Source: Burkholderiales bacterium (GTDB taxonomy: Bacteria > Pseudomonadota > Gammaproteobacteria > Burkholderiales > Burkholderiaceae_C). From it: a stretch of 48,416 nt of DNA. The notes under the pieces are model-generated. The model was not told the DNA's origin. It searched no databases and saw only the letters and a program-made list of their open reading frames with translations. Position numbers and translations under genes: made by a program. The stretch lies in assembly GCA_030602985.1 (NCBI GenBank), contig JAUVYR010000004.1:1-48416 (forward strand). The letters run 5' to 3'. Every line of letters begins with the position of its first letter. The first letter of the stretch is position 1. Positions 2,755-31,204 of the stretch are shown in pieces.

Positions 2755-3087
2755 ATGTACACCTCACCTCTTCTTTGCCGCTCGGTCATGGCCCTGCTGG
2801 TTGCCAGCCTGATGGCCAGCACGTCCTTCGCGCAGCCCGGGCAGCCCGCCGACGCCCTGGACCGAGAACCCGTTCGCACACTGGAACAGCGAACGGAACG
2901 GATTGTTCACATGGACTCAGGCAGCCGCATTGAAGAATTGCGCGTGGGTGGGCAGACGCGCAGCATCGAAGTGGAAACCAACTCACGCGTCCCTGGCTAT
3001 CAGGTGCAACCCATGGACCCGAGCCAGATGCGCGATGGTCGGGGCTCCACCCCAGGCAAGAGCAGCTGGCGGATTCTGCAGTTCTGA
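2755..3087 (+). CDS. DUF2782 family secreted protein
   Basis: A 110-residue protein of unknown function. Residues 1-25 form a signal peptide: a short charged start, hydrophobic [10 protein letters not shown], then a SFA|Q cleavage site. The mature part is small, charged and without Cys, ending in the family-typical [13 protein letters not shown]2782 proteins are commonly found upstream of thrB in Burkholderiales. Here thrB starts two bases after this stop, so the two are probably cotranscribed. The ATG at 2755 was chosen because it gives a complete signal peptide; an upstream in-frame ATG at 2686 would add 23 unlikely residues. No spaced Shine-Dalgarno precedes 2755, which fits the -10 box seven bases upstream and a possible leaderless message. 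Confidence 0.85.
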
Positions 3088-27345: not shown

Positions 27346-28206
<861 letters not shown>

Positions 28207-28242: not shown

Positions 28243-28281
28243 ATAGTTTATTGACAAACAAACTATTTGTCAATAAACTAT
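28243..28281. promoter_or_regulatory. 39-bp perfect palindrome carrying two mirrored promoters (BigR-type operator)
   Basis: ATAGTTTATTGACAAA (28243-28258) and its exact reverse complement (28266-28281) flank a seven-base spacer. Rightward, TTGACA 28251-28256 and TAAACT 28274-28279 are 17 bp apart. Leftward, the mirror copies TTGACA 28273-28268 and TAAACT 28250-28245 are also 17 bp apart. The two promoters overlap completely, so polymerases would exclude each other. A dimeric repressor on the dyad would block both genes. Confidence 0.85.
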
Positions 28282-28307
28282 CTTTGCGCTAAGTAAAGGA
28301 GCCTCAC

Positions 28308-28631
28308 ATGCTGGCCGACACCACCATCGATCTCGACGACATGCGGGCCGCCGCCGATGCCGCCTGCCGCCTGATGAAGGCGCTTTCCAACCCCGACCGT
28401 CTGCTGCTGCTGTGCCAATTGAGCCAGGGGGAGTTGCGCGTGGGGGAACTGGAGGAGCGCCTGCACATCATGCAGCCGACGCTGTCACAACAGCTGGCCG
28501 TGTTGCGCGACGAGGGCCTGGTGGCCACCCGCCGCGAAGGCAAGCACATCCATTACCGCGTGGCCAGCCCGCAGGCGCTGGCCTTGCTGGGTGTGCTTTA
28601 TCAACAGTTCTGTCCCATCATCAAGGAGTAA
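28308..28631 (+). CDS. bigR: ArsR-family sulfide/persulfide-responsive repressor (BigR/SqrR type)
   Basis: A 107-residue winged-helix repressor. The recognition region is LHIMQPTLSQQLAVLRDEGL and the wing is VATRREGKHIHYRV. Cys36 (LLLLCQLS) and Cys102 (YQQFCPI) are at the places of the two conserved cysteines of BigR and SqrR, which form a disulfide or polysulfide bridge and release DNA when persulfide appears. A third Cys, C20, is not part of that pair. There is no ArsR-type ELCVC metal site. AAGGAG precedes the ATG. It probably represses both the divergent hydrolase and its own operon through the palindrome. Confidence 0.88.
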   Translation: MLADTTIDLDDMRAAADAACRLMKALSNPDRLLLLCQLSQGELRVGELEERLHIMQPTLSQQLAVLRDEGLVATRREGKHIHYRVASPQALALLGVLYQQFCPIIKE

Positions 28632-28635
28632 GCTC

Positions 28636-29067
28636 ATGTCCATCGACTGGACCCATTTCACGCCCTGGACTTCACTGGCCGGTGGCATTCTGCTGGGCAT
28701 CGCCTCGGCCATGTTCATTCTGCTCAACGGCCGCATTCTGGGCATCAGTGGCATCGTCGGCGGGCTGCTGCGCCCGCGTTCGGGCGATATAGGCTGGCGC
28801 CTGGCCTTTGTGCTGGGCATGCTGGTGGCCCCCACCTTGTATTTCCTGATCGCGGGGCCCACGACCGTGCGTATCGATGCGGGCTGGCTGACCCTGGTCG
28901 TGGCCGGGTTGCTGGTCGGCGCTGGCACCCGCTATGCCTCGGGCTGCACCAGCGGTCACGGCGTCTGTGGCTTGTCAAGGCTGTCGCCCCGCTCCCTCGC
29001 TGCCACGCTGGCCTTCATGGCGGCGGGTTTCGCGACCGTTTACCTGGTTCGCCACGTACTGGCCTGA
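28636..29067 (+). CDS. YeeE/YedE family half-transporter (PmpA-like)
   Basis: A 143-residue inner-membrane protein with four hydrophobic segments. The YeeE/YedE signature GAGTRYASGCTSGHGVCGLS contains two cysteines, thought to relay thiosulfate or persulfide sulfur in this family. It starts four bases after the regulator stop with GGAG in front. The following gene is its usual partner, so the two probably form one transporter. The start at MSIDWTHF was chosen because the ribosome site lies just before it; the open frame itself extends 15 codons upstream. Confidence 0.88.
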   Translation: MSIDWTHFTPWTSLAGGILLGIASAMFILLNGRILGISGIVGGLLRPRSGDIGWRLAFVLGMLVAPTLYFLIAGPTTVRIDAGWLTLVVAGLLVGAGTRYASGCTSGHGVCGLSRLSPRSLAATLAFMAAGFATVYLVRHVLA

Positions 29068-29086
29068 TCACATAGGAAGTCTGACC

Positions 29087-29515
29087 ATGCAACGTCTTTC
29101 TGAATTTCTCGTAGGTCTGATCTTCGGCATCGGCCTGATCCTCTCAGGCATGACCGATCCCGGCAAGGTGATCGGCTTTCTGGATCTGTTCGGCAACTGG
29201 GATCCTTCCCTGGCCTTTGTCATGGGAGGCGCCATTCTGGTGGGCGTGTTCGCTTTTGCCGTGGCCAAGAAACGTACCACCAGCCTGCTGGGTGGGGCCA
29301 TGCAGTTGCCCACCGCCCGCCACGTGGACAAGCGCCTGATCATCGGGAGCCTGGCCTTTGGCGCTGGCTGGGGCCTGGCCGGCTTTTGCCCCGGCCCGGC
29401 GCTGGTTTCCCTGGGGGCTGGAGAAGTCAAGGCGGCCGTGTTCGTGCTGGCCATGCTGATCGGCATGCTGGCCTTTGAAGTGGCTGAACGCCTGAAAGCA
29501 CCGGCCTCGAAATAA
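29087..29515 (+). CDS. DUF6691/YeeE-like partner half-transporter (PmpB-like)
   Basis: A 142-residue membrane protein with hydrophobic helices at about 7-22, 42-60, 86-104 and 112-132. The conserved motif AGFCPGPALVSLGAG contains the single signature Cys, and GMTDPGKVIGFLDLFGNWDP is the N-terminal family block. AGGAAG at 29074-29079 precedes the start. Pairs of these half-length YeeE proteins are typical of BigR operons. Confidence 0.87.
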   Translation: MQRLSEFLVGLIFGIGLILSGMTDPGKVIGFLDLFGNWDPSLAFVMGGAILVGVFAFAVAKKRTTSLLGGAMQLPTARHVDKRLIIGSLAFGAGWGLAGFCPGPALVSLGAGEVKAAVFVLAMLIGMLAFEVAERLKAPASK

Positions 29516-29539: not shown

Positions 29540-31204
29540 ATGAAGAACCCACCCCGCTGGCTGCCAACCTGGCTCAGCAGCTACCAACGCGGTCAATTGT
29601 CCGGCGACCTGACCGCCGGCCTGATCGTGACGGTGATGCTGATCCCGCAAAGTCTGGCCTACGCCATGCTCGCGGGTCTGCCGCCAGAAGTGGGGCTGTA
29701 CGCCAGCATCCTGCCCTTGCTGGCCTACGCAGCCCTGGGCTCCAGCATGACATTGGCGGTGGGCCCGGTGGCGGTGGCCTCGCTGATGACCGCCAGCGCA
29801 CTGCAACCGCTGGCCACACCGGGCTCACCGGAATACGTGGCGCTGGCCATTGCGCTGGCCCTGCTGTCGGGCGTGATGCTGCTGGTTTTCGGGTTTCTGC
29901 GCCTGGGGTTTCTGGCACAGCTGCTCAGCCATCCGGTGATCAGCGGCTTCATCACAGGCTCGGCGCTGCTGATCGCCATCGGACAGACCCGGCACCTGCT
30001 GGGCCTGCCTGCGGGTGGTGATCATGCCATCGGCCAGGTCTGGCACCTATTGACTCACCTGCCTCAGGTGGAATGGGTCACCGCCTCGATTGGCCTGGGG
30101 GCCGTCGCGCTGCTGCTGCTGATGCGCCGGCTGCTGGGGACCCACCTGCTGGGCAAACTCGCTCCGATGGCCGTCGTGATTCTGGGTACGGTGGCGGTGG
30201 CCTTCTGGCAGCTGGATCAAAGCGCGGGGGTGCGTATCGTGGGCGAAGTGCCGGCCGGCCTGCCCATGCTCGGCCTCAGCCTGCCGGGCTGGAACGCCAC
30301 CCTGGCCCTGCTGCTGCCCGCCTTGCTGATCTCGCTGGTGGGCTTTGTGGAAAGTGTGTCAGTGGCGCAGTCGCTCGCACTGAAGCGCCGCCAGCGCATC
30401 GAACCCAACAAGGAACTGCTGGGCTTGGGCGCGGCCAACGTGGCGAGCGCCTTGTCTGGGGGCTACCCGGTCACGGGTGGATTTGCCCGTTCGGTGGTGA
30501 ACTTCGCCGCCGGGGCACAGACCCCGCTGGCGGGCGTGATTTCCGCCGCCTTCATGGCCGGGGTACTGCTGGGGCTGACGGGCTGGTTCCACTACCTGCC
30601 GCATGCGGTGCTGGCGGCCACCATCGTGGTCGCGGTGCTGCAACTGGTGGACTTCCAGACCCTGCGTCAGGCCTGGCGCTATGACCGCGCAGATGCCCTG
30701 GCTTTTGCAGCCACCGCCGCCGGTGTGCTGCTCCTGGGCGTGGAAGCCGGCATTCTGGCGGGTGTCGCCTTGTCTCTGGGTGTGCTGGTCTGGCGCAGCA
30801 GCCGGCCCCATATCGCGGTCATCGGCCGGGTGCCAGGCACGGAACACTTTCGCAACGTGCTGCGCCATCAGGTGGAAACCCGCCCTGGCCTGCTGGCACT
30901 GCGGGTAGACGAAAACCTGTTCTTTGCCAACGCTGCGCTGGTGGAACAGCACATCGAAGGCCTGCTGGCAGCCGACCCCTCCTCACGTCGGGTGCTGTTG
31001 GTGTGCTCGGGCGTGAACCAGATCGACACCACCGCGCTGGACATACTGACCGAGCTGGAACATCGGCTGGCAGAACAGGGCATACGGCTGGAACTGGCCG
31101 AAGTCAAAGGGCCTGTGATGGATCGCTTGCAACGTGCGCCACTAGGCGAACGTTTGGAAGGGCGTGTCTACTTGAGCACACACGCCGCTTTTCTCGCCGA
31201 TTAA
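29540..31204 (+). CDS. SulP-family anion transporter with STAS domain
   Basis: A 554-residue secondary transporter of the SLC26/SulP family. The N-terminus shows LSGDLTAGLIVTVMLIPQSLAYAMLAGL and GLYASILPLLAYAALGSS, the family signature, followed by about 12 helices. A C-terminal STAS domain (about 435-550) carries VCSGVNQIDTTALDIL. Substrates in the family include sulfate, bicarbonate and organic anions. Its place as the last gene of a persulfide-oxidation cassette suggests sulfite or sulfate movement, which is inference. It follows the half-transporters by 24 bases. Its TAA overlaps the nuoN TAA on the other strand. Confidence 0.9.
   Translation: MKNPPRWLPTWLSSYQRGQLSGDLTAGLIVTVMLIPQSLAYAMLAGLPPEVGLYASILPLLAYAALGSSMTLAVGPVAVASLMTASALQPLATPGSPEYVALAIALALLSGVMLLVFGFLRLGFLAQLLSHPVISGFITGSALLIAIGQTRHLLGLPAGGDHAIGQVWHLLTHLPQVEWVTASIGLGAVALLLLMRRLLGTHLLGKLAPMAVVILGTVAVAFWQLDQSAGVRIVGEVPAGLPMLGLSLPGWNATLALLLPALLISLVGFVESVSVAQSLALKRRQRIEPNKELLGLGAANVASALSGGYPVTGGFARSVVNFAAGAQTPLAGVISAAFMAGVLLGLTGWFHYLPHAVLAATIVVAVLQLVDFQTLRQAWRYDRADALAFAATAAGVLLLGVEAGILAGVALSLGVLVWRSSRPHIAVIGRVPGTEHFRNVLRHQVETRPGLLALRVDENLFFANAALVEQHIEGLLAADPSSRRVLLVCSGVNQIDTTALDILTELEHRLAEQGIRLELAEVKGPVMDRLQRAPLGERLEGRVYLSTHAAFLAD

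Follow-up and report, generated by a model that had tools for sequence, protein, structure and literature searches.

The window considered here is the whole stretch of 48,416 nt that was analysed, in which a 101-bp intergenic region separates two divergent genes. The gene on the minus strand (27346–28206) encodes a 286-aa MBL-fold protein that resembles persulfide dioxygenases and is devoid of a BLH_phosphatase (DUF442) domain. The best solved full-length relative of this protein is 4ysk (residues 4–286, E 8.5e-123), human ETHE1 persulfide dioxygenase 4chl standing lower in the list (E 9.8e-19), and its full-length similarity to persulfide dioxygenase-like MBL proteins makes the corresponding activity a prediction. 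An identity as Blh, the bifunctional sulfur transferase/dioxygenase that combines DUF442 and ETHE1-like domains, was considered and rejected since DUF442 is absent and the NCBIfam Blh cut-off was missed (402 of 625 bits), the model being matched only at positions 141–423, which correspond to the dioxygenase part.

On the plus strand, the Shine-Dalgarno sequence AAAGGAG (28295–28301) precedes the gene of a 107-aa ArsR-family regulator (28308–28631) that contains the ArsR winged-helix domain (HTH_5, E 5e-14). Its best PDB match is Xylella BigR (3pqj, E 2e-24) and, next to BigR, the closest solved relatives include the ArsR-family protein of entries 6o8l–6o8o, which we take to be SqrR. Residues Cys36 and Cys102 correspond in the alignment to the BigR pair Cys42 and Cys108 (66 residues apart) and do not vary among the eight sequences aligned, BigR being one of them. 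The structure matches and the aligned cysteine pair support a regulator of the BigR/SqrR type, as had been proposed in the first-pass annotation of this DNA. The cut-off of the NCBIfam BigR equivalog (NF040642) was missed by the protein (104.5 of 155 bits), which is therefore BigR-like and not the named equivalog; because the NCBIfam cut-offs were missed, the names BigR and Blh are applied at this locus by similarity. Further along the plus strand are encoded the first half of a YeeE/YedE-type membrane protein (Sulf_transp, 28636–29067), a second half of the DUF6691/YedE-like type (29087–29515, also readable as a longer open reading frame at 28934–29515) and a SulP-family anion permease with a STAS domain (29540–31204). 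The permease gene probably, but not certainly, shares an operon with arsR and the YeeE/YedE-like genes. Among named relatives, the locus is closest to that of Tepidimonas sp. UBA997, whose regulator is 92% identical.

The intergenic region holds a perfect dyad of 39 bp at 28243–28281 (centre 28262), with the sequence ATAGTTTATTGACAAACAAACTATTTGTCAATAAACTAT. A recheck of coordinates and complementarity found the palindrome to be exactly as initially described, with 16-bp arms complementary at 16/16 positions around a spacer of exactly 7 nt. With the loop limited to 20, no other inverted repeat of the window reaches an arm length of 11 bp. Shuffled sequences gave shorter arms, the longest being 10 bp when the 101-bp region was dinucleotide-shuffled 2,000 times and 12 bp when the 39-mer itself was shuffled 3,000 times. 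The motif TTGACA-N17-TAAACT that had been read on each strand was recovered by a promoter scan in both directions, at 28251–28279 (+) and 28273–28245 (–), with 10/12 consensus matches each. The predicted promoter of the arsR operon is composed of a −35 (TTGACA, 28251–28256) and a −10 (TAAACT, 28274–28279) on the plus strand, and that of the dioxygenase-like gene of a −35 (TTGACA, 28268–28273) and a −10 (TAAACT, 28245–28250) on the minus strand; all four elements are kept in relatives. The −35s are located inside and the −10s at opposite ends, each −10 abutting the opposite −35. Transcription is predicted to start at ~28286 (+) for the arsR operon and ~28238 (–) for the dioxygenase-like gene, ~48 bp apart, with leaders of ~22 and ~32 nt and a Shine-Dalgarno sequence on both sides.

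The promoter-like sequences support the fully overlapping divergent arrangement claimed for the dioxygenase-like gene and the regulator operon, and with both core promoters within 28245–28279 the element belongs to the wider class of overlapping divergent promoters, which use the same DNA on opposite strands. On steric grounds, this geometry makes it very likely that polymerases would exclude each other at the 39-bp element. The two promoters had also been called identical, which is accurate for the hexamers and the arms and does not extend beyond them: the 17-bp spacers are unlike (AACAAACTATTTGTCAA vs AATAGTTTGTTTGTCAA) because the central 7 nt are not self-complementary, and the sequences that precede the −35s and follow the −10s differ as well. 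The same strength, argued earlier from symmetry, is not supported by the sequences. Core-promoter scores are equal in only 48 of 128 core-bearing relatives, the regulator side being higher in 55 and the dioxygenase side in 25 (mean 10.0/12 vs 9.5/12), so that equal strength by symmetry is not a conserved property.

Homologues of the regulator were taken from genome contigs and whole genomes of the family and the order, yielding 238 analysed loci, 177 with a divergent dioxygenase gene and 61 non-divergent, whose counts share ancestry and hence are not independent. In a first set, 93 of 107 distinct intergenic regions align on a TTGACA/TGTCAA core with exactly 11 bp between the two hexamers, and 74 of these 93 are non-redundant. 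On each strand of the 74 relatives, the −35 reads TTGAC(A) with few exceptions and the −10 conforms to TANANT, in which bases 1, 2, 4 and 6 hardly vary and bases 3 and 5 are free. The TTGACA-N11-TGTCAA core is kept in 128 of the 177 divergent ArsR loci, from related Burkholderiales, and both promoters score at least 9/12 in 109 of these 128. A pattern search tolerating at most one mismatch found 23 of 401 family genomes with one site each, 22 of the 23 sites adjoining the arsR gene of the same locus by coordinates; the reversed control pattern was found in none of the 401. Among close regulator homologues (at least 65% identity), the core is present in 108/118 divergent loci vs 5/13 others. 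A paired comparison likewise favours the co-occurrence of core and divergent dioxygenase gene, with 26 vs 6 discordant pairs, neighbouring pairs not being independent.

Some of these five other loci that carry the core have another sulfur-related gene in the divergent position, which encodes a rhodanese-domain protein in L047 and a BLH_phosphatase-domain protein in L165. Locus L167, just under 65% identity, has a very similar, BLH_phosphatase-like divergent gene. A stand-alone gene of the BLH_phosphatase (DUF442) sulfur-transferase-like type thus replaces the dioxygenase gene behind a similar dyad in L165 and L167, as if the halves of Blh had been swapped behind one switch.

Conservation of symmetry across relatives had been suggested as a check, and the alignments separate two properties: the interlocked geometry of the predicted promoters is kept in many loci, and perfect symmetry is not. 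Exact 16/16 pairing is found in 6 of 115 distinct divergent loci, the mean being 12.3 paired positions, and the dyad is imperfect in the sister species (L003/L032). When arms were re-dealt between loci, 11.3 positions paired (sd 0.10) vs the 12.3 observed; arms of the same locus therefore agree somewhat beyond what the family consensus explains. In a tree based on the regulator and dioxygenase proteins, the variable arm positions 14 and 16 co-change ~3 and ~2.5 times over expectation, both figures being rough estimates. It is conceivable, if somewhat improbable, that the exactness of the symmetry arose mostly by mutation, with one arm of a quasi-palindrome being copied onto the other by template switching, and that the 16/16 match itself is functionless. 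The rarity of perfect arms, the imperfect dyad of the sister species and the co-change all agree with such an origin, but co-change would be expected both from template-switch correction and from selection via a symmetric binding protein. Template switching would in any case account for the exactness alone and not for the hexamers or the half-sites described below, and it is compatible with a composite promoter/operator element.

In the 74 aligned relatives, pairing between positions is maximal at centre 0 (0.71, the highest overall) and at centres −7.5 and +7.5. At centre −7.5, the half-site positions TAT/ATA pair at 0.76–1.0. These half-sites, nine bases apart and accompanied by outer A.A and T.T, delineate two predicted 24-bp repressor sites with centres 15 bp apart, the left one at 28243–28266 (ATAGTTT-N10-AAACTAT, centre 28254.5) and the right one at 28258–28281 (centre 28269.5), with 9 bp in common. 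The inner half-sites fall within the promoter spacers, and their conservation there is not explained by any promoter element. A single repressor dyad had been put forward for both genes; two overlapping sites lying 7.5 bp either side of the centre fit the half-sites better. That one repressor dimer would instead occupy the central dyad appears unlikely: pairing does peak at centre 0, but this is also expected from two mirror-image promoters. Moreover, the conserved spacer bases ATA/TRT (−4 to −2 and 2 to 4), for which no promoter element accounts, pair with the outer half-sites at a spacing of 9 bp, about one turn between adjacent major grooves, and the 15-bp distance between sites is seen again in loci that lack the promoter core.

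The arrangement of two overlapping sites provides a predicted operator signature for BigR-like regulators in Burkholderiales, A.A...TAT......ATA...TRT......ATA...T.T. At least 12 of its 16 positions are matched in 165/177 divergent and 34/61 non-divergent loci, a level reached by 1 of 238 shuffled sequences. The signature was learned from core-bearing loci, and its independent support therefore comes from loci without the core, in which the operator motif recurs, also as pairs 15 bp apart; such paired matches are likelier by chance because the motif partly self-overlaps at the 15-bp offset. Loci L253 and L258 are examples in which the signature is present without the hexamers. By eye, the SqrR motif ATTC-N8-GAAT does not fit and was not seen in that form. 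Upstream of arsR in L104 and L110, extended palindromes with extra copies of TTGACAAACAATATA suggest more than two adjacent repressor sites.

Since some positions coincide, the operator and promoter layers are not fully separable by conservation. Promoter-specific positions can nevertheless be defined outside the operator half-sites as the GAC of the −35 and the fourth base of the −10. On the two strands, 3.5 and 3.4 of these 4 positions are kept in divergent loci and 2.3 and 2.3 in the others, a difference that sets the operator layer apart from the promoter layer and speaks for two real promoters wherever a divergent gene requires them. These figures bear on a different and rather doubtful explanation, according to which the dyad is merely a repressor operator, the regulator promoter being real, the second TTGACA/−10 pair a by-product of symmetry and the dioxygenase-like gene transcribed weakly or from elsewhere. 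The occurrence of the signature without hexamers and a regulator-side promoter nearer to consensus on average are in its favour; the retention of the promoter-specific positions on both strands of divergent loci, and their lower conservation in loci without a divergent dioxygenase gene, speak against it. Decay of the reverse promoter where no divergent gene was found could be followed in two usable cases: in L085, the reverse −35 has decayed to CCGACG and the regulator promoter is kept, but both promoters are kept in L071. A chance inverted repeat, a terminator or a mobile-element end with no regulatory role is most improbable for a dyad that lies far beyond shuffles, is specific to this locus across genera and has conserved hexamers. 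Neither transcript would contain the dyad, given that transcription is predicted to start beyond it on either side, and a terminator or attenuator role was rejected on this ground.

We consider it probable that the 39 bp form a composite element in which two interlocked sigma70-type promoters coexist with a pair of overlapping operators that the BigR/SqrR-type ArsR repressor encoded next to it would bind. Directly visible in the sequences are the palindrome, the −35 and −10 hexamers of each strand and the degree to which these are conserved, the signature of the operator and the invariant cysteine pair; from them we infer promoter activity, repressor binding, sulfide sensing, the number of dimers and polymerase exclusion. 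The two pseudo-palindromic operators would overlie the promoters, each centred near one −35, and the reduced repressor would cover the element and silence both directions, the dioxygenase-like gene on one side and its own operon on the other (regulator, YeeE/YedE-like genes and perhaps SulP). Repression by promoter occlusion is documented for YgaV on its own promoter (PMC9774250). Sulfide, persulfide or polysulfide would then link Cys36 and Cys102 and cause the repressor to leave the DNA; BigR is released from DNA by sulfide and polysulfide (PMC5823870). After release, polymerase could start in either direction, with room for only one polymerase at a time. Competition after derepression is plausible given the near-consensus elements and constitutes a prediction of the scheme. 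A more elaborate proposal, which we hold to be speculative and rather unlikely as a whole, is that selection keeps the interlocked module in Comamonadaceae-type Burkholderiales, that two dimers bind and that promoter competition after sulfide exposure sets a fixed ratio of enzyme to repressor operon or a cell-to-cell choice.

The general principle of an autoregulated divergent promoter with polymerase exclusion is already known, and older examples of overlapping divergent promoters with a regulator are the E. coli biotin operator and Tn10 tet. Mutual exclusion, initially presented as the novel aspect of this locus, has been published for E. coli bidirectional promoters including acrA/acrR (PMC12825309). 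The likeness to PacrA/acrR is considerable: target and autorepressor genes are divergent, the promoter is symmetric, AcrR silences both directions and polymerase binding is mutually exclusive (Warman et al. 2026, PMC12825309). However, AcrR is a TetR-family autorepressor while the regulator is ArsR/BigR-like here, and the two PacrA/acrR directions share part of one −10, whereas in the present element the −10s are at opposite ends (28245–28250 and 28274–28279) with the −35s inside; this is therefore not a bidirectional promoter in the sense of Warman et al., which implies a shared −10. Starts in that study are typically 10, 18 or 23 bp apart (PMC12825309), compared with the ~48 bp predicted here. 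In plasmid pLS20, the published divergent promoters Pc and Pr likewise overlap, one of the two belongs to the regulator itself and an operator covers the overlap; that system differs in that it uses promoters of different strength, DNA looping and a tetrameric regulator (PMC4207663).

BigR of Xylella and Agrobacterium is an ArsR-family repressor with paired cysteines that controls a sulfur dioxygenase and sulfur-related membrane proteins, a role also predicted for the regulator of this locus; bigR and blh are described as one operon (PMC5823870), whereas the dioxygenase-like gene of the present locus is divergent and its product has no sulfur-transferase (DUF442) domain. E. coli YgaV belongs to the same regulator group and its footprint covers its own promoter, transcription starting 28 bp before the start codon; in contrast to the present locus, the available part of the report describes no interlocked divergent promoter (PMC9774250). 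Serratia PigS, which resembles the regulator of this locus, is reported to be an ArsR-family protein that acts on divergent operons with predicted sulfur-compound transporters (Gristwood et al. 2011). In the literature searched, neither the interlock itself (−35s inside, each −10 directly next to the −35 of the other promoter, and a pair of overlapping BigR-like sites) nor its conservation across many Comamonadaceae-type Burkholderiales appears to have been described. Such an element would lend itself, as a small natural system, to testing under which conditions competition between polymerases is of consequence. In the five bidirectional promoters examined to date in E. coli, basal activity is too low for competition, which arises once one direction is strongly activated (PMC12825309); the pair predicted here, by contrast, is near consensus with optimal spacing, and one signal would free both promoters.

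Three further occurrences of related motifs were noted. A TTGACA-N11-TGTCAA sequence on contig 40 of the same assembly (2983–3005) falls within a katG-like reading frame, and we attribute it to chance. The sole off-locus match of the family search, L151 (G387:C20, ~1501–1535), adjoins a BrnT toxin gene and was set aside; its palindrome has weak −10-like arms and is possibly an independent case of a similar autoregulated layout. Finally, L019 and similar loci of a regulator clade at ~60% identity (e.g. L199 and L191) display an alternative layout in which the divergent promoters would overlap in a different register, TTGACA/TGTCAA being located in L019 at the outer ends, ~37 bp apart, with TATA-like elements within.
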